The notes under the pieces are model-generated. The model did no database searches. It worked only from the letters and a program-made list of their open reading frames with translations, and was not told the origin of the DNA. The position numbers were made by a program, and so were the translations under genes. A stretch of DNA of 33,685 nt from Candidatus Omnitrophota bacterium. Lineage in GTDB: Bacteria > Omnitrophota > Gorgyraeia > JAHJTE01. Shown here piece after piece: positions 395 through 25,830 of this stretch. Every line of letters begins with the position of its first letter. The stretch's first letter is position 1. Where the stretch lies: assembly GCA_020058285.1 (NCBI GenBank), contig JAGVEL010000005.1, positions 1 to 33,685 on the forward strand, in the 5' to 3' direction.

Positions 395-2845
395 ATGGCT
401 TGCGATTTTAAAACAATTGATGAAAAGTGGCAGAAATTCTGGCAGGAGAATAATACGTTCCGTAGCCTACCTTCTTCTGCTCATCCCAAATTTTACTGCC
501 TGGAGATGTTTCCCTATCCATCTGGCAAGCTGCATATGGGCCATGTGCGTAACTACACTATTGCTGACGTAGTGGCGCGGTTTAAGTGGATGCAAGGCTT
601 AAACGTTATTCACCCTATAGGCTTTGATGCCTTTGGTCAACCAGCAGAAAATGCCGCAATTAAAAACAAAACCGACCCAGCAGCCTGGACTTATAAATGC
701 ATTGATTGGATGCGCCAGGAGATGCGCCGACTTGGTTTTTCTTATGATTGGCAAAGAGAGATTGTTACTTGCGATGCCAATTATTACAAATGGAATCAAT
801 GGATATTTTTAAAGATGTTTGAGCGCGGTTTAGCTTACAGAAAACCGGCAACAGTTAATTGGTGCCCAAGTTGTGCTACAACCCTGGCTAATGAAGAGGT
901 AGTTTCGGGGGGCTGTTGGCGCTGCAAAGCCCAAGTAGAGCAGAAAGAACTAGAGCAGTGGTTTTTAAAAATTACTGATTACAAAGAAGCTCTTTTAGAT
1001 GATTTAAAATTACTAAACAATTGGCCGGCCAGGGTAATTAGCATGCAGGAGAATTGGATTGGCAAGAGCCAGGGTGTTGAAATATATTTTAAAATTAAGG
1101 AGACTGGAGAGACAATCAATGTATTTACGACGAGAGTTGACACTATTTTTGGCGCAACCTACATTGTGCTTGCACCAGAGCATTCAATTACGGTAAAGCT
1201 AAAAGACAAAATATCAAATTTAAAAGAGGTTGAGCTCTATATCAAAAAAGCAAAACAAAAATCAAGGACCGAACGCGTAGATGCCGCCCAGACAAAAAGC
1301 GGCGTGCAAATAAAAGGTATAACCGCGATTAACCCGGTAAATAATGAACAGATTACGATATGGATTGCAGATTATTGTTTGATGGAATATGGTACAGGCG
1401 CAATTATGGCTGTGCCAACTCATGACCAGCGTGATTTTCTTTTTGCCAAAGAACATAACCTGCCCCTAAGAATAGTTATCCAACCCCAAAACCAAGAACC
1501 GCTAAGTGAACACCAACTTAGCGAGGCTTATGAAGGTGATGGGATTCAAGTAAACTCTGGCCAGTTTGATGGCTTAGACAATAATCAGGCAAAGGTAAGA
1601 ATCGCCGATTGGATGCAGAGTACAGGTATTGGTAAAATTCAGACACATTGGCGCCTGCGTGATTGGCTGATATCGCGCCAGCGTTATTGGGGTACGCCTA
1701 TACCGATTATTTATTGCGACAGATGCGGTGTTGTTCCAGTACCGGATGATGATTTGCCAGTGAAACTGCCAGAGAAAATTAAGATATCTGGCGAACAAGG
1801 CTCTCCGTTAACAAAGGTTAAGGAATTTGTGAATACAAAGTGTCCAAAATGTAATGCTAAGGCCCTGAGGGACACTGATACAATGGCGACATTTATTGAT
1901 TCTTCATGGTATTTTCTGCGTTTCTGCTCTCCGGATTTTGATTCTGCGCCTTTTAAAAAAGAGGATGCCAAATACTGGATGCCTGTTGATCAATATATCG
2001 GCGGCATTGAGCATGCAATCTTGCATTTACTTTATGCGCGCTTCTTTACAAAATTTCTAAAAGACCTAAAACTAGTTGATTTTTCAGAGCCGTTCAATCG
2101 CCTGCTCACGCAAGGTATGGTGTTAAAAGACGGTATAGTGATGTCTAAATCCAAAGGCAATGTAATTGACCCGGACAGCGTGATTAATGAATACGGGGCG
2201 GATACGCTGCGCACTTTTATACTTTTTGCTGCGCCACCTGAGGTTGAGCTCGAATATAGCCAGCGGGCGATAGAAGGCAGCTGGAAATTCTTAAACCGGG
2301 TATGGACTTTAGTTTCGCAAATTAGTGGAACTGTAGTAGAAAAGTCTGAGAAAGATAAAATTTCAGCTTTACTACGCAAAACCCATCAAACCATAAAAAA
2401 AGTTACATCTGACTTGGAGAACTTTAAATTTAATACTGCAATTAGCAGCCTTATGGAATTGGTGAATGCAATCTATCAAGAGGTTGCAGATAATAAACGC
2501 AAAGATGCAGAAGTTTTTTTGGCGGTGAAGACAGTTGTATTATTACTAGCGCCAATTGCTCCGCATATCTGTGAAGAAATGTGGCAGATGCTCGGCGGAA
2601 AATCTCCTGTTTCCAAAGCTATCTGGCCGACTTTCGATGAAAATTTAATAAGAACTGAAACTGTTGCGATTATTATCCAGATTAATGGTAAATTACGCTC
2701 AAAAATAGATATAGAAGTTGATTCGCCAGAAGAACGGGTAAGAGAACTAGCGCTAAACGATGAGAAAATAAAAAATTGGCTTGGCGCTAAACAGATAAAG
2801 AATATAATTGTAGTTAAAGATAAATTAGTCAATATTGTAATTTAA
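395..2845 (+). CDS. leuS: Leucyl-tRNA synthetase
   Basis: This cytoplasmic class I enzyme charges tRNA-Leu with leucine using ATP. At 816 residues it has normal bacterial length. The HIGH-type motif is in [15 protein letters not shown] (about residue 42). The CP1 editing domain shows the threonine-rich [12 protein letters not shown] and the [10 protein letters not shown] segment with its conserved Asp. Zinc-type cysteine pairs occur at CPSC/CWRC and CDRC/CPKC. The KMSKS signature is present as VMSKSKGN, so the first Lys is Val. The C-terminal anticodon-binding region is complete. The ATG at 395 follows a good promoter but has no clear Shine-Dalgarno sequence. The HD-GYP gene follows after 13 bases, so the two are probably cotranscribed. 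Confidence 0.97.
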
Positions 2846-2858
2846 CAGAGAATTCAAT

Positions 2859-3692
2859 ATGTCCTATAAAAGTTCTATTGGCAAGGCAGTGGCAAATATT
2901 CTGGCCAACCAGGGATTTAAATTATGGGTGCTTATTTTTCTTTTCAGCTTGATTGCCTTAAGGCTTATCACAATTTTTTATTACCCTAAGACTGATATTA
3001 TATCTATTGCCTGGTCGCTAACCATTGCTTTGTTTTGTGTAGGTTATCTCTGGATTGCTGAATTAAGGGACCGGCATAGGCTGGAACGAATTAACCGTGA
3101 GTTAACTATTACTAAGGATATCTTAAAAGAAAGCGAACTGGACGCGATTATGGCTCTTATCTTGAGCCAAGAAGCAAAGGACCATTACTCCTATGGCCAT
3201 ACTAGCCGAGTGACCAAATATTCTGTTGAGTTGGCAAAGGAGTTGCGTTTGCCTGAACACATTGTTGATACTATTGAACGCGCTGCAAAACTACACGATA
3301 TCGGAAAAATCGGGATTAAGGATAGCATCTTATTCTATGAGGGGAGATTAAGCGAGAAGGATTACGAAGTGATTAAGACTCATCCGGTAAAAAGCGTAAA
3401 TATCTTAGAACCATTAAAATTCTTACAAGAAGAAAAAGGAATGATTTTACATCATCATGAAAGATACGACGGGAAAGGTTATCCTCAAGGCTTAAAGAAA
3501 GACCAGATTCCTTTGGGTGCGCGCATAATTGCCATTGCTGATTCTTTTGATGCGATGTCTTCAGACCGGGTTTATCGCAAGCAGCTGTCTAAGCAGGCAG
3601 TGATAAAAGAATTACAGGATAACTCCGGCACACAGTTTGACCCGCATTTAGCCAAGGTATTCTTATCGATAATTAACCGGTTTTATGATTAA
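2859..3692 (+). CDS. Membrane-anchored HD-GYP domain protein, probable c-di-GMP phosphodiesterase
   Basis: A 277-residue protein with two predicted transmembrane helices near residues 20-40 and 47-67, a short charged linker likely to be coiled coil, and a complete HD-GYP domain from about residue 95. Visible motifs are HTSRV, the metal-binding HDIGK, HHHERYDGKGYP (the signature HHExxDGxGYP) and IADSFDAMSSDR. Such domains hydrolyse cyclic di-GMP to GMP, often through pGpG. No classical sensory domain is seen; the N-terminal helices may form a small membrane sensor. The last 8 bases overlap the start of comEA, so translation is probably coupled. The target process is not shown; nearby com and pil-type genes make surface motility or DNA uptake plausible. 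Confidence 0.88.
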   Translation: MSYKSSIGKAVANILANQGFKLWVLIFLFSLIALRLITIFYYPKTDIISIAWSLTIALFCVGYLWIAELRDRHRLERINRELTITKDILKESELDAIMALILSQEAKDHYSYGHTSRVTKYSVELAKELRLPEHIVDTIERAAKLHDIGKIGIKDSILFYEGRLSEKDYEVIKTHPVKSVNILEPLKFLQEEKGMILHHHERYDGKGYPQGLKKDQIPLGARIIAIADSFDAMSSDRVYRKQLSKQAVIKELQDNSGTQFDPHLAKVFLSIINRFYD

Positions 3693-13796: not shown

Positions 13797-14907
13797 ATGC
13801 ATGAAGAATTTCTAACACATATAAATAAAATTAAAAGAAACCTAGAACAGCTGCGAGAGTTTCTTTGACATAGATAATAAACAACAAGTAATCCTTCAGA
13901 TTGAGCAAGGGATGCATAATCCTGATTTCTGGAAGGATTTACCAGCCGCAAATAAGAAAAACGTTGCGCTTAAGGAATTAAAAGATGCAGTTGATATTTG
14001 GGGCCAGGTCAACAGGCGAATCAAAGAGTTGGAAGACCTTTATGCTTTAGCCTCAGATCAAGACCAACAGATTTTAAACGAAATCAATTCCGAGCTTTCT
14101 AGGATTGATGAGCAATTACAGTTGTTGGAAACCCGCACGCTTTTTTCTGGTCAGTTTGATAAAAATAATGCTATTCTAAGTATTAACGCCGGCGCTGGTG
14201 GGACAGAATCCTGTGATTGGGCATCTATGCTTTTTAGGATGTATAGCCGCTGGGCGCAAATTAAGGGACTTATAGTCAAGGTTCTAGACATATTACCCGG
14301 AGAAGAGGCTGGGATAAAAAATATAACATTCTCGGTTAATGGCCAATATGCTTATGGCTATTTAAAGTCAGAGAGAGGCGTGCATCGTCTGGTGAGAATT
14401 TCGCCTTTTGATGCAAATAAACGTAGGCATACCTCATTTGCTTCTGTTGATGCGATTCCAGAGATTCAGGCGGACATAGAGATACAGATTAATCCTCAGG
14501 ATTTGCGTATTGATACCTACCGCTCTTCTGGCGCAGGTGGCCAGCATGTCAATGTTACAGATTCTGCGGTCAGGATTACACATATACCCACAGGTATAGT
14601 TGTCCAGTGTCAAAACGAGCGCAGTCAACATCAGAATAAAGCCGTGGCGATGAACATTCTGCGGGCCCGTCTTTATGAAAAGGCATTAAGAGAAAAAGAA
14701 GAAAAGCTTTCAACTGAACACTCAAAAAAGCAAAAGATAGAGTGGGGCAGCCAGATACGTTCTTATGTCCTACAGCCTTACACATTAGTTAAAGACCATC
14801 GCACTGATTACGAAACAGGAGATATTAATGCAGTGTTAGACGGTAAATTAGATAAATTTATGGAACACTTCCTAAAATGGAAGCTAATGTCCCGGAGTAA
14901 GGAATAA
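13797..14907 (+). CDS. prfB: Peptide chain release factor 2, expressed by +1 frameshift
   Basis: RF2 ends translation at UGA and UAA. The gene is in two frames: 23 codons from ATG 13797, then in-frame TGA at 13866-13868. A +1 shift at CTT TGA C resumes at GAC (13867-13869) and continues to 14907. The joined product is 369 residues, the usual RF2 length. The anticodon-like tripeptide SPF is at about 202-204 and the catalytic GGQ at 247-249 ([10 protein letters not shown]). A start at the downstream ATG 13912 would lose the N-terminal part, so it is not the real start. The frameshift is autoregulatory: low RF2 lets ribosomes pause at UGA and shift. secA starts 4 bases after the stop. Confidence 0.96.
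13863..13869 (+). other. Programmed +1 frameshift site of prfB
   Basis: CTT TGA C is the same slippery heptamer used by most bacterial prfB genes. It lies at codons 23-24 of the upstream frame. The stimulatory Shine-Dalgarno-like sequence is weak: GAGAG ends a few bases upstream rather than AGGGGG. Frame continuity on both sides is exact. Confidence 0.93.
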
Positions 14908-22101: not shown

Positions 22102-22278
22102 ATGCTTAAGTTACGTAGATATTTTTTCACTGGCCTGGCAGACTTAATTTTTGTGCCCAAAGACGAGGTGATATTACCGGATATAACAATAGAGGAAGCG
22201 TTAAAAGTAATAGTTTCCGGCGGTGTTATTAATCCGGACGAAGGAGGTCAAATGAAGCCCAAAGTTATGGAACGATAG
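22102..22278 (+). pseudogene. Internally deleted DUF502-type membrane protein remnant
   Basis: A 58-codon frame joins two separate parts of DUF502 proteins. The start, MLKLRRYFFTGL, matches the N-terminus (normally followed by two transmembrane helices). The rest, FVPKDEVILPDITIEEALKV and then IVSGGVINP, matches the C-terminal end. The roughly 150 residues between, including both helices, are missing. The last 8-10 codons (QMKPKVMER) come from the inserted repeat copy 1. No ribosome site is seen. It is best read as a decayed gene whose 3' end was reshaped by the repeat. DUF502 function is unknown. Confidence 0.65.
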
Positions 22279-22476
22279 TGAACATAACTTTATTGGCTGA
22301 ATTTGACCCAGCACTTATTTTACAAAAAAAGACTATTATTTATAAACAAGAGTTTTATCTTAAAAAATTACGTAAATTTTGATTATAAACCTGGCAGTAA
22401 AATAAGTGCTGGGTTTAATTCGCAGACGCTTCGCTATAATTTATGTCACTTATGCTCCATAAATTATCTGCTCATT
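22246..22476. repeat. Three-hairpin interspersed element, copy 1
   Basis: 231 bp with three hairpins. Hairpin 1: AAAGTTATG (22261-22269) with CATAACTTT (22283-22291), extended by AGCC/GGCT, loop GAACGATAGTGAA. Hairpin 2: a perfect 17-bp stem, CCCAGCACTTATTTTAC (22307-22323) with 22397-22413, around an AT-rich 73-base loop. Hairpin 3: ATAATTTATG (22436-22445) with CATAAATTAT (22458-22467). It ends TGCTCATT. An 11-bp direct repeat, AAGGAGGTCAA, flanks it at 22241-22251 and 22478-22488; the right one is the ribosome site of the next gene. Left and middle parts are nearly identical to copy 2. Confidence 0.85.
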
Positions 22477-22491
22477 AAAGGAGGTCAATAT

Positions 22492-22953
22492 ATGTTAAGG
22501 AAAATTTCGTTTATATTAATTTTTACTATTTGTTTTGTTGTGGCAGCTTATGCCCAGGAACAAGCTTCGCAAGAGAGTAAGCCAGCCCCAGCAACAAATC
22601 AGGTCAATATAATAAGCGAGAAAGAACCTTCTCTCGATGAAGAATTAATGAAACTCGAGCCAGAGGAATCTAATGGTACAGGACAAGCAGACTTGCAATG
22701 GGTTTGGGGAGAAATCACAGCGGTTGATTTAGTAAATAGTAATATAAAGGTAAAATTCCTTGATTACGGAACCGACGGCGAAAAAGAGGCGCAATATTTC
22801 TTAAATAAAGATAGTCAACTGGAAAATATTTCTTCAGCCCAAGAAATTAAGGTTGGGATGAGCGCAGGCATTGATTACTCTATAGACGCTGAAAATAAGT
22901 TTATAATAAAAGCAATAAGCGTTGAGCAGGCTAATCCTCCTGTTGGACAATAA
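22492..22953 (+). CDS. Exported protein of unknown function
   Basis: A 153-residue protein with a signal peptide (hydrophobic core about residues 5-19, likely cleavage after AAYA, before QEQ). A low-complexity Glu/Pro/Ser-rich linker (about 22-60) precedes a compact domain of about 85 residues containing LQWVWGEITAVDLVNSNIKV and LDYGTDGEKEAQYFL, which looks like an all-beta OB-like or DUF5666-like fold. I cannot assign a function. The ATG at 22492 is fixed by a perfect ribosome site AAGGAGG (22478-22484). A longer open frame upstream only reflects the open phase of repeat copy 1. Confidence 0.75.
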   Translation: MLRKISFILIFTICFVVAAYAQEQASQESKPAPATNQVNIISEKEPSLDEELMKLEPEESNGTGQADLQWVWGEITAVDLVNSNIKVKFLDYGTDGEKEAQYFLNKDSQLENISSAQEIKVGMSAGIDYSIDAENKFIIKAISVEQANPPVGQ

Positions 22954-22997
22954 TCCATAAACATTCATAAGTTTAAGCGTTTATTCAATAATCGACA

Positions 22998-23519
22998 ATG
23001 AAAATAATTCTAAATTTTTTAAAGAACATATTAGTTTTGGCAGCGATTGCCGCTGGTGTGTTTTTAGTTTTTAATCAGATATGGTTTTTAGACCGCCGTC
23101 CATTTGCTTCTCCGCTGGATAAAAATATAAAATTAGTTGTCCGGGCTGATCTATATGGAGACGGCCATTTTGGGGCTCGGCGAAGTGGTGCCCGGAAACA
23201 TAATGGCATAGATTTAATGGCGCCAGTTGGTACTGATGTGCGCTCAGTTAAAAGCGGTTGGGTAGTAGCCGCGAGAGAAGCGCGGGGTTTTGGCAAATAT
23301 GTAGAAATTTACCATGGCCAGGGTTTGATTTCAATCTATGCCCATCTTGATGAAATAAATGTCAATGTACTCCAGCGTGTCAGGCAAGGACAAGTAATCG
23401 GAGCTATCGGTAAAACCGGCAACGCAAATCACCGGGCAATACTTCCCCATTTACATCTGGAACTGATACAGGATGGCCAGTATTTGGATCCAACTCCGAA
23501 ATTACTACATCGTTCTTAG
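22998..23519 (+). CDS. M23-family (LytM-type) peptidoglycan endopeptidase
   Basis: A 173-residue protein with an N-terminal membrane anchor or signal (about 7-26) and a LytM-type M23 metallopeptidase domain. All zinc ligands are present: His68 and Asp72 in HNGID, and His153 in the HLHLE motif (His151-x-His153). GYAH-type core is seen as IYAHLD. It should cut peptide cross-links in peptidoglycan from the periplasmic side, though some members only regulate amidases. Length is near minimal, with no LysM or coiled-coil region. It starts 44 bases after the exported protein and ends 2 bases before the HAD gene. Confidence 0.9.
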   Translation: MKIILNFLKNILVLAAIAAGVFLVFNQIWFLDRRPFASPLDKNIKLVVRADLYGDGHFGARRSGARKHNGIDLMAPVGTDVRSVKSGWVVAAREARGFGKYVEIYHGQGLISIYAHLDEINVNVLQRVRQGQVIGAIGKTGNANHRAILPHLHLELIQDGQYLDPTPKLLHRS

Positions 23520-23521
23520 TT

Positions 23522-24175
23522 ATGGAACAGCTTTTCTTAGGTAATATAAGGTTAATAATTTTTGATTTGGATGGAACACTGGTTGACGCTTATCAGGCAA
23601 TTAATAGCAGTTTCAATTTTACAATGCGCACCTTACATTTGCCGCAGCCAAGCACACGCCAAATAAGGAAAGCAGTCGGCTGGGGAGATAAGCAACTACT
23701 CGCTCCATTTGTGCCCGAGGGATTGTTATCAAAAGCCTTAAAAATTTACCGCATCAATCATAAACTTAGTTTAACCAAGAAGTCAAAATTGTTGCCTAAA
23801 GCCAGGGAGTTATTAACCAGATTATCATCTAAATACACATTAGCCATAGCCAGTAACCGGCCAACAGAATTTTCAAAAATTTTATTAAAAGCATTAAATA
23901 TAAACAAATATTTTGCTTTTCTGCTTTGTGCGGATAAATTGGATAGGGGTAAACCTAACCCGTTGATTCTTAGAAAGATTATTAAGCATTTCAAGGTTTC
24001 GGCTCGGCAGGCATTGTACATTGGAGATATGGCAATTGATGCCCAGACAGCAAACCGGGCTAAGATAAAATCAATTATTGTTACTACCGGCTCAAGCAGT
24101 CTTTATGAAATTAAGAAGGAAAAGCCTTTTAAAATAATATCTAACTTAGGTGAGCTAACTAATTATATTAGTTAG
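23522..24175 (+). CDS. HAD-superfamily phosphatase, phosphoglycolate phosphatase-like
   Basis: A 217-residue HAD hydrolase with all four motifs: IIFDLDGTLVDAY (nucleophile Asp15 and Asp17), IASNRPTEF (motif II), RGKPNPLIL (motif III Lys), and YIGDMAIDAQTANRA (motif IV). The alpha-helical cap between motifs I and II is of the Gph/PGP type. Likely substrates are small phosphate esters such as 2-phosphoglycolate; the sequence does not fix it. It starts 2 bases after the M23 gene, so the two form an operon. Its last codons form half of a 12-bp hairpin. Confidence 0.88.
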   Translation: MEQLFLGNIRLIIFDLDGTLVDAYQAINSSFNFTMRTLHLPQPSTRQIRKAVGWGDKQLLAPFVPEGLLSKALKIYRINHKLSLTKKSKLLPKARELLTRLSSKYTLAIASNRPTEFSKILLKALNINKYFAFLLCADKLDRGKPNPLILRKIIKHFKVSARQALYIGDMAIDAQTANRAKIKSIIVTTGSSSLYEIKKEKPFKIISNLGELTNYIS

Positions 24176-24178
24176 CTC
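24152..24178. other. 12-bp hairpin across the stop codon of the HAD gene
   Basis: GAGCTAACTAAT (24152-24163) and ATTAGTTAGCTC (24167-24178) are perfectly complementary around a three-base loop. No T-run follows on the + strand, so it is not a classic terminator. It lies just upstream of the ribosome site of a tiny basic gene and may stabilise or punctuate the mRNA. Confidence 0.7.
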
Positions 24179-24194
24179 AAAAATGGAGGTGTGT

Positions 24195-24275
24195 ATGGGC
24201 AAACGTCATCGCAGAGGAAAGCTTTCTTGGCGTTCAAAGAGAGCAAATAAAGGCAATAAACCCTGCCGCGGCTAA
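24195..24275 (+). CDS. 26-residue highly basic peptide, unknown
   Basis: A short frame of 26 codons starts MGKRHRRGKLSWRSKRANK and ends in NKPCRG, with 12 Arg/Lys residues. It has one of the strongest ribosome sites in the window (GGAGGTG at 24185-24191, just before ATG 24195). Its stop TAA shares an A with the uppP start codon (TAATG), implying translational coupling. The MGK-rich, RGK pattern recalls the tiny ribosomal protein bTHX, but the match is not good enough to name it. Nucleic-acid or ribosome binding is an inference from charge. Confidence 0.7.
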   Translation: MGKRHRRGKLSWRSKRANKGNKPCRG

Positions 24276-25096
24276 TGATACATCGCTTTTTTATATTAGG
24301 AGCAATCCAGGGATTGACGGAATTTTTGCCTATCAGTAGCTCAGGCCATCTGGTAATATTCCAGAAAATATTGCATATTGCCGAGGGTGATGTAGGCTTT
24401 GATATAATCGTGCATTTGGCGAGCCTGGCTGCAGTGATTTTCTTCTTCAAGAAAGAATTAGCGAGTTTACTACGCAGTGCCCTAAGCTACGCAGTAAATG
24501 TTTTAGCCAATAAAACTTTTAAGCCAGACAGCCAAAACAAAAATAATTTAAAAGTAATTCTATTTATATTTTATGCAACTCTTGTTACCGGAATAATCGG
24601 TTTTGTCTTTAAAGATTTATTTGAGAAATTATTTAGCTCAATTAAGGCCGTAAGCCTAAGCCTGGCAATTACAGGCGCAGTGCTTTTTATGACCAGGTTT
24701 AAGCTAACTAGTAAAAATCGCCACGAAGATAAATTAGGCGTCTGGGATGGTTTGGTCGTTGGTTTTGCTCAAGGTCTGGCTATTGTTCCAGGTCTTTCGC
24801 GTAGCGGCTTAACTATTTGCGCTGGCATTTTTTCAGGCATTGAGCGGGCTCTAGCAGTGCGGCTCTCATTCTTATTATCTATACCGGCAATCATCGCTGC
24901 AGCTGTTTTTAAGATAAAAGACTTAAATTCTTCAAACATACCCTTAGGGTATCTATTCATTGCTTTTATCAGTGCGTTTATTTTTGCTTTTGCTTCTCTA
25001 AAAATTTTGCTGGTAGTTGTGCAAAAATGCAAGCTTCATTATTTCGCTTATTATTGTTGGTTACTTTCTATAATTGTTTTTCTATTTGTAAAATAG
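24275..25096 (+). CDS. uppP: Undecaprenyl-diphosphatase (BacA type)
   Basis: A 273-residue membrane enzyme that dephosphorylates undecaprenyl diphosphate so the lipid carrier can be reused for peptidoglycan and other envelope polymers. Family signatures are QGLTEFLPISSSGHLVIFQ and PGLSRSGLTICAGIFSGI, with the catalytic Glu and Arg/Ser residues in place. About eight helices and normal length. The ATG overlaps the stop of the 26-residue peptide. The TAG stop (25094-25096) is immediately followed by repeat copy 2. It fits the cell-wall theme with murJ and the M23 gene. Confidence 0.96.
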   Translation: MIHRFFILGAIQGLTEFLPISSSGHLVIFQKILHIAEGDVGFDIIVHLASLAAVIFFFKKELASLLRSALSYAVNVLANKTFKPDSQNKNNLKVILFIFYATLVTGIIGFVFKDLFEKLFSSIKAVSLSLAITGAVLFMTRFKLTSKNRHEDKLGVWDGLVVGFAQGLAIVPGLSRSGLTICAGIFSGIERALAVRLSFLLSIPAIIAAAVFKIKDLNSSNIPLGYLFIAFISAFIFAFASLKILLVVVQKCKLHYFAYYCWLLSIIVFLFVK

Positions 25097-25319
25097 GTCA
25101 AATGAAGCCCAAAGTTATGGAATGAAATGAACATAACTTTGTTAGCTGAATTTGACCCAGCACTTATTTTACAAAAAAAGACTATTATTTATAATAAAAG
25201 TTTTGTCTTAGAAAAATATATAAATTTTAATTTTAAGCCCGGCAGTAAAATAAGTGCTGGGATTAATTCGCACTAATAATTTACGTCATTTTTCAAATTC
25301 CGTAAATTATGTGCTCATT
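25096..25319. repeat. Three-hairpin interspersed element, copy 2
   Basis: 224 bp, from the uppP stop codon to 5 bases before the MazG-like start. Hairpin 1: 25111-25119 with 25132-25140, loop GAATGAAATGAA. Hairpin 2: the same perfect 17-bp stem as copy 1 (25156-25172 with 25245-25261). Hairpin 3: ATAATTTACG (25276-25285) with CGTAAATTAT (25301-25310). Its left and middle parts follow copy 1, but its last 61 bases (25259-25319) are identical to copy 3. Confidence 0.85.
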
Positions 25320-25323
25320 CAAT

Positions 25324-25623
25324 ATGAAAAAATTAAATATTAAACAACTAATTAAGCTTTGTCATAAGATAGCCAGAGAAAAAGGGTTTTGGGATAGCGA
25401 GCGCAACGTTGGTGAAATGCTGATGCTCATTGTCACTGAACTTGCCGAAGCAATGGAGGCTTATCGCAAACAAGATAAGGAAAACTTTAACGAAGAAATT
25501 GCCGATACGTTTATCCGGCTTTTTGATTTAAGCGGTGGGTTAAAAATTGATGTCGAAAAAGAGATTATGAAAAAAATGAATAAGAATAAAAACCGGCCGT
25601 ATAAACACGGGAAAATATGTTAA
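25324..25623 (+). CDS. MazG-like nucleotide pyrophosphohydrolase
   Basis: A 99-residue all-alpha NTP pyrophosphatase of the MazG/dUTPase-like group. The metal-binding pattern ExxE...ExxD is visible in TELAEAMEAYRK and FNEEIADTFIRLFDL. Such enzymes hydrolyse (d)NTPs to monophosphates, cleaning the pool or modulating alarmones; the true substrate is unknown. I prefer ATG 25324 to ATG 25309, because the earlier one lies inside the conserved tail of repeat copy 2. No ribosome site is visible. The gene is alone, enclosed by copies 2 and 3 of the repeat, like a cassette. Confidence 0.82.
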   Translation: MKKLNIKQLIKLCHKIAREKGFWDSERNVGEMLMLIVTELAEAMEAYRKQDKENFNEEIADTFIRLFDLSGGLKIDVEKEIMKKMNKNKNRPYKHGKIC

Positions 25624-25818
25624 ATGAAGGCATAACTTAGCGAACGATAAGTGAAGCTAAGTTATTTGCCTGAATTTATCCCGCCCTTTTGGTGATGATA
25701 TTTACCACTAGCTGGCGGGAAAAATAAGGAAATTTTATTAATTTAATCCAAAAGGGCGGGATTAATTCGCACTAATAATTTACGTCATTTTTCAAATTCC
25801 GTAAATTATGTGCTCATT
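25621..25818. repeat. Three-hairpin interspersed element, copy 3
   Basis: 198 bp, beginning at the stop codon of the MazG-like gene. Hairpin 1: AGGCA plus TAACTTAGC (25628-25641) with GCTAAGTTA...TGCCT (25656-25671), loop GAACGATAAGTGAA. Hairpin 2: ATCCCGCCCTTTTGG (25678-25692) with 25748-25762, 15 perfect pairs, extended by GAATT/AATTC. Hairpin 3: 25775-25784 with 25800-25809. Stems 1 and 2 differ in sequence from copies 1 and 2 but keep pairing, while the hairpin 1 loop and the flanks CTGAATTT and AATTCGCA are kept. Confidence 0.85.
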
Positions 25819-25830
25819 AAGAGGTGTCAA

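Follow-up and report, generated by a model that had tools for sequence, protein, structure and literature searches.

Hairpin repeats in the window

We analyzed a stretch of 33,685 nucleotides (nt) of DNA, hereafter the window, from a Candidatus Omnitrophota bacterium (the host; assembly GCA_020058285.1, contig JAGVEL010000005.1, positions 1 to 33,685 of the forward strand), with a focus on three copies of a hairpin repeat within it. A first-pass annotation had described three copies sharing an architecture of three successive hairpins, and all three copies were present where it had placed them. Each copy consists of a hairpin unit, a central palindrome, and an inverted hairpin unit; thus, there are indeed three hairpins, but the first and the third are one unit in opposite orientations.

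Copy 1 begins with a left unit on the plus strand at 22246 to 22308 (GGTCAAAT-GA-AGCC...GGCT-GA-ATTTGACC), which was detected by a structural scan and by a covariance model and has a single-stranded DNA (ssDNA) folding z value of -6.3. Its center at 22307 to 22413 (inverted repeat I10) contains no open reading frame (ORF), and its arms (CCCAGCACTTATTTTAC ... GTAAAATAAGTGCTGGG; arm family a) are common to elements bearing a gene for a GIY-YIG nuclease, as described below. The right unit of copy 1, at 22414 to 22479 on the minus strand, has an enlarged bulge (43 bits with the covariance model; z, -3.2). This unit and those at C66:3350, C24:15661, and C62:22352 of the host genome, G000, are right units of the GAGCAGAC...GTCTGC type in which an additional small hairpin replaces the 2-nt bulge. 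Copy 2 is made up of a left unit at 25096 to 25157 on the plus strand (structural scan and covariance model; z, -6.2), an ORF-less center of arm family a at 25156 to 25261 (inverted repeat I17), and a right unit at 25262 to 25322 on the minus strand, which was detected as direct repeat D3 and by the structural scan, the covariance model, and ssDNA folding. In copy 3, the left unit at 25620 to 25679 on the plus strand (structural scan and covariance model; z, -5.5) supplies, with its TTAA, the stop codon of a MazG-like ORF. It is followed by an ORF-less center at 25680 to 25760 (inverted repeat I2) with arms of another family, c (CCCGCCCTTTTGG ... CCAAAAGGGCGGG), which also bracket a GIY-YIG gene at locus L318, and by a right unit at 25761 to 25821 on the minus strand (direct repeat, structural scan, and covariance model; z, -5.9).

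Copies 2 and 3 differ in their left units and centers, yet their right units show 100% identity across 61 nt ending with TCATT. As had been pointed out, the first stem and the center stem of copy 3 are unlike those of copies 1 and 2 in sequence and nevertheless pair fully, and the third stem of copy 1 carries a compensatory change from C-G to T-A. The structural scan found five units in the window, whereas 10 first-order shuffles gave none, which places the motif well beyond chance expectation; it allows the conserved 2-nt bulge, and a version without the bulge returned no units. The z values ranged from -3.2 to -6.3 for the individual units and reached -9.5 for the whole of copy 3.

Unit structure and covariation

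The unit is about 60 nt long and reads, in its own direction, TTNAAT - GA - 4 bp - 10 bp - GA loop GA(A) - 10 bp - 2-nt bulge - 4 bp - GA - ATTNAN, with CCC adjoining it on the inner side. Two tandem G.A/A.G mismatches and the 2-nt bulge therefore lie within the stem. The foot of the hairpin is TTNAATGA, and GTAG was found in none of 315 units. The outer and inner arms pair over at least 5 bp in 84% of these 315 units, compared with about 18% when the inner arms were shuffled, a figure to be read with the outer arm possibly being in part derived from the target.

In an alignment of 43 units from the host and related genomes, 95.7% of the cells pair, double changes occur at 15 of the 20 pairs, and the covariation score is 0.541, versus 0.153 for shuffled alignments and at most 0.092 for slid structures. 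This indicates that the structure is under selection, as had been proposed. One-sided G-U changes were seen in only 3 of 859 cells of this alignment, and in a covariance-model alignment of 121 units G-T occupied 49 of 2415 cells and was rarer than other mismatches; since both the scan and the covariance model favor well-paired units, this scarcity is suggestive only. Besides, the inverted arrangement means that any single strand of an element has the GA/GA mismatches in just one of its hairpins and TC/TC in its partner. The few G-U pairs and this symmetry together suggest that the pairing takes place in DNA and not in RNA. Thus, of the two roles initially considered for the repeats, structured RNA has become less likely, whereas that of single-stranded recombination substrates remains plausible.

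Distribution of the units

The family is far larger than the three copies noticed at first. A covariance-model search of the host and its relatives, as the first-pass annotation had recommended, detected units in 126 of 193 sampled Omnitrophota genomes. The host assembly (1.24 Mb) contained 77 strong units, of which some stood singly and others formed at least 31 close convergent pairs; divergent pairs were not seen. Copies in relatives and covariation were thus both found, no known insertion sequence (IS) or miniature inverted-repeat transposable element end emerged to refute the proposal, and, in line with the initial failure to recognize a known family, there was no match in Rfam at either gathering or permissive thresholds. 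In a pattern scan of public genomes, 71 of 80 contigs among the matches listed belonged to Candidatus Omnitrophota. A phage source was rejected because the exact unit pattern had no match in viral contigs (IMG/VR). As far as the searched collections show, the repeat family belongs to Omnitrophota.

Several units lack a partner. At locus L196 (JAHJGZ010000164.1, 2893 to 7655), six units in one orientation are spread between ordinary genes over 5 kb, each followed, where inspected, by a short palindrome and no partner unit; an integron array of attC sites, which this common orientation suggested, was rejected because the units sit between ordinary genes. Units with a center hairpin and no partner also lie in or beside tRNA genes at L268 (G000:C70:14836-14894) and L033 (G020:C56), and on C70 the start of the tRNA gene, ATGCGCCTGTAGCTCAAA, is repeated on either side of the insert. 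As L196 suggests, a solo unit with its center may be a mobile form of its own.

GIY-YIG nuclease genes inside complete elements

What the first-pass annotation missed is that the window copies belong to a mobile family as its ORF-less form and that complete copies of this family carry a GIY-YIG gene between the hairpins. In one host pair (C21:552-938, locus L017), the 263-nt center encodes a 77-amino-acid protein, and a second such case was found at L022 of genome G034. A complete element of about 380 to 450 bp consists of a unit, a center arm, one gene for a single-domain GIY-YIG protein of about 78 amino acids, the complementary arm, and an inverted unit, with the start and stop codons of the gene in or beside the center arms. 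The element-borne proteins scored 39 to 66 bits against PF01541 (GIY-YIG; cutoff, 22.6).

A search of the 193 genomes with one element-borne nuclease gave 31 places in 22 genomes; the query was of subtype a alone, so that distant subtypes are undercounted in these numbers. Strong units lie on both sides of the nuclease ORF at 13 loci (L305, L306, L307, L309, L310, L311, L313, L318, L325, L327, L328, L329, and L333), and one strong and one weak unit do so at four others (L308, L312, L332, and L334), while ten weaker matches without units form a separate subgroup. As a control, the best generic GIY-YIG gene of each genome had a unit close by in only 1 of 30 cases; a general link between units and PF01541 genes was therefore rejected, and the linkage is limited to the element-borne subfamilies.

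The catalytic Tyr, Tyr, Arg, His, and Glu residues are invariant in 12 element-borne proteins, and pN/pS ratios of 0.14 to 0.32 point to purifying selection on the nuclease. The closest solved sequences are those of the structure-specific GIY-YIG nucleases UPF0213 and SLX1 (PDB 1zg2, 1ywl, and 7cq2); SLX1 acts on branched DNA, and both are cellular proteins not known as parts of mobile elements.

The center arms fall into families according to the nuclease subtype: a (CCCAGCACTAATTTT), d (CACACCCAGC), e (CACACCAATT), c (CCCGCCCTTTTGG), and f (CCCCCACCACTTTTG). On the protein tree, whose branch support is modest, the arm labels require the minimum possible number of changes, which was equaled in none of 200 shuffles. 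Two subtypes can coexist in one genome, as in G034 (a and e) and G058 (d and e). The tie between the element family and the GIY-YIG gene is firm.

ORF-less copies are mostly about 150 to 230 bp long, have the units and arms of complete elements, and outnumber these in the host, where they carry arm families of nuclease-bearing elements; in the window, copies 1 and 2 are of family a and copy 3 is of family c. Because they lack an ORF and have the arms of nuclease-bearing elements, the window copies are best read as non-autonomous forms, and the nuclease gene on C21 of the host might act in trans on those of family a. A further arm family, CCCTCACCTTTTTAGG, is a frequent ORF-less center in G000 (C5, C15:24874, C40:36363, C46, C49, and C62:22352); no nuclease-bearing copy of it was seen in any genome looked at.

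Mobility and module exchange

Two genomes of one genus, G045 and G050, are 93 to 99% identical over the compared ribosomal-protein operon and differ in their elements. Between the L29- and S17-type genes, G045 has a GIY-YIG-bearing element where G050 has about 40 bp of other sequence. Two clean insertions were found in this comparison: L380:6829-7099, and L381:3037-3288, where the flanks are 94% identical and the empty site has one TCATT but the filled site two. The target at L400:5606, ATGAAAGTAA, is single in G050 and stands on both sides of the element in G045, which amounts to a 10-bp target duplication, and an element of G034 (L352) is bracketed by a 17-bp direct repeat. Duplications of 5, 10, and 17 bp were seen at three sites. 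A fixed length of target duplication is not supported. The resolved targets are AATGA-like sequences or their complement, as at the ends of the elements, and several lie at start or stop codons.

Copies also exchange modules at fixed sites, as the shared right unit of window copies 2 and 3 shows. At orthologous G045 and G050 sites with flanks 96 to 99% identical, the center and right unit (L392) or the center and hairpin loop (L390) were replaced, in keeping with cleavage inside copies followed by repair or conversion among them. Taken together, the family is real, selected, and mobile.

At L355 (G045:C106, about 650 to 3180), elements occupy nearly every gap between consecutive ribosomal-protein genes, and in one case the left end of an element gives the L29-type gene new C-terminal codons and a stop. 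Further insertions that distinguish G045 from G050, at L370:11967-12214, L381:4459-4723, and L371:16883-17151, are of palindromic repeat families (AATTCCAAATCACAAAT... and TTCGTAAATTCGTA...) that are unrelated to the unit model.

As to other features of the window, a search for related loci with the small ORF neighboring the repeats yielded no relatives. CTTTGAC at 13863 to 13869, upstream of the prfB ORF at 13912, is the motif at which the programmed +1 frameshift of release factor 2 usually occurs.

Interpretation and alternatives

We consider it probable that Omnitrophota contain a family of minute mobile DNA elements that are moved or converted by their own GIY-YIG nuclease acting on DNA hairpins, and that the window copies are non-autonomous members of it. 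The nuclease is the probable mobilizing enzyme. Several observations weigh against this interpretation. Most copies have no clear target duplication, and many sites differ between G045 and G050 by replacement rather than by clean insertion. The congruence between arms and nucleases could arise from linkage alone. In-frame stop codons occur in two nuclease copies (L312 and L333), and therefore not every copy is functional. Finally, the host assembly contains no nuclease-bearing partner for arm families other than a, and some relatives likewise hold unmatched arm families.

As for how such elements would move, the GIY-YIG protein may recognize its own element through the center arms, the hairpins, or both, probably as single-stranded or extruded DNA, and may nick or cut there and at targets that resemble the element end (AATGA/TCATT). 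Host repair or copying would then either insert a copy, with target duplications of varying length, or turn one copy into another in a homing-like manner. GAATTNA, the inner arm, might pair with TNAATGA at the end or in the target (AAT with ATT, plus the tandem G.A pairs); if the outer bases are in part derived from the target, as L400 and L352 suggest, this arm would play the role of the guide sequences of IS200/IS605 elements.

An alternative that we regard as unlikely is that another enzyme moves the hairpin elements in trans and that the GIY-YIG gene lives in their center as a passenger or parasite of the homing type. Such an arrangement would account for the great excess of ORF-less copies over nuclease-bearing ones, for a single nuclease gene in the host facing at least six arm families, and for nuclease matches, at the threshold used, in only 22 of the 193 genomes compared with units in 126, although the subtype a query undercounted distant subtypes in this comparison. 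However, no other ORF was found in the elements, no Y1 transposase was found in the host or near units, and the arms frame the nuclease gene exactly in genomes of several families and more than one class.

It is much less probable that the repeats are repetitive extragenic palindromic (REP) sequences or bacterial interspersed mosaic elements (BIMEs), including REPINs, dispersed by a REP-associated tyrosine transposase (RAYT; Y1, HUH). Short intergenic hairpins in inverted pairs, with conserved stem mismatches and many copies per genome, are indeed features of BIMEs (PMC8266576), and 32 of 39 relatives have PF01797 genes. Nevertheless, no such gene was found in the host assembly, which is 93% complete and has 77 units, or in G008, which also has units, none of 30 Y1 genes (one per genome) has a unit within 1.5 kb, and the hairpin foot is TTNAATGA without GTAG.

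The strong covariation and the position of copies between genes, often just before a ribosome-binding site, would suit a structured noncoding or cis-regulatory RNA element spread by duplication. We find this scarcely credible given the few G-U pairs, the TC/TC that any transcript would have instead of the conserved GA/GA in one of its two hairpins, the differing neighbor genes, the nuclease ORF in the center, and the lack of an Rfam match. Least probable of all is that the units are single-stranded recombination sites like the attC sites of an integron. The unit does recall the folded attC site with its covarying stem, unpaired spacer, and extrahelical bases, and copies 2 and 3 have a small ORF between them, but the units form inverted pairs around a center instead of direct repeats after each cassette, the nuclease genes lie inside these pairs, and the only two tyrosine recombinases in the host are on contigs without units.

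Comparison with known systems

Stand-alone and intron-borne GIY-YIG homing endonucleases share with the elements described here the catalytic domain, copy conversion at fixed sites, and a spread that probably proceeds by cutting and repair. The element-borne protein, in contrast, is a single domain of about 78 amino acids without a separate DNA-binding domain, and its gene lies between hairpin ends and inner arms, with many sites per genome and abundant ORF-less copies.

The REP, BIME, and REPIN sequences associated with RAYT transposases (PMC8266576, PMC2817692, PMC3733652, and PMC3116915) resemble the family in being short palindromes with conserved stem mismatches, arranged in inverted pairs with a linker, intergenic, numerous, and represented by non-autonomous copies. 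They differ in the foot (GTAG or CGTC rather than TTNAATGA); the unit here is about 60 nt long with two tandem G.A motifs, the linker is itself a palindrome with subtype-specific arms, and the enzyme gene is inside the element and encodes a GIY-YIG protein rather than a Y1 transposase. Elements of the IS200/IS605 type, in which guide sequences are known (PMC8266576), and the palindrome-associated transposable elements (PATEs) of Haloquadratum likewise have near-terminal hairpins, a short target motif, possible guide pairing, and many ORF-less derivatives. However, their enzyme is TnpA (Y1) or TnpB, and IS605-type and PATE insertion causes no target duplication (PMC3119063), whereas the ends of the present elements are inverted copies of each other, target duplications occur, as judged from few events, and the host has no Y1 gene. 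Penelope-like retroelements are also mobile, with a GIY-YIG endonuclease and short target duplications, but they are eukaryotic and have a reverse transcriptase (PMC3846280), which is absent from the present elements with their single ORF of about 78 amino acids. By analogy, the closest functional parallels may be REPIN or IS200 hairpin elements, though with another enzyme, or a homing endonuclease with its own hairpin ends.

More tentatively, and without going so far as to call it probable, we propose an autonomous element class of about 0.4 kb, in which a GIY-YIG nuclease of about 78 amino acids and host repair mobilize REP-like hairpins, internal guide arms direct them by pairing to AATGA-type sites, and large ORF-less populations are maintained throughout a phylum. 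If this reading holds in its entirety, for which our confidence is equally limited, the autonomous element would rank among the smallest known. Such an element class would be new, while the nuclease fold and the REP-like hairpins, which are its parts, are of known kinds. We found GIY-YIG hairpin elements described nowhere in the open-access literature, to which this search was confined, so that absence is not proven.

The strong covariation of these units, which probably stems from DNA rather than RNA structure, is a caution for RNA discovery pipelines. The findings also bear on how REP-like repeats without a dedicated transposase spread, for example, the CGTC repeats (PMC3733652). If the proposed mobilization is true, stand-alone GIY-YIG nucleases would join the enzymes that move hairpin-ended DNA, and a minimal two-part system, consisting of a 78-amino-acid protein and hairpins of about 60 nt, would be open to testing in vitro. 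For Omnitrophota, it would explain how a repeat family came to extend through the phylum without a RAYT.

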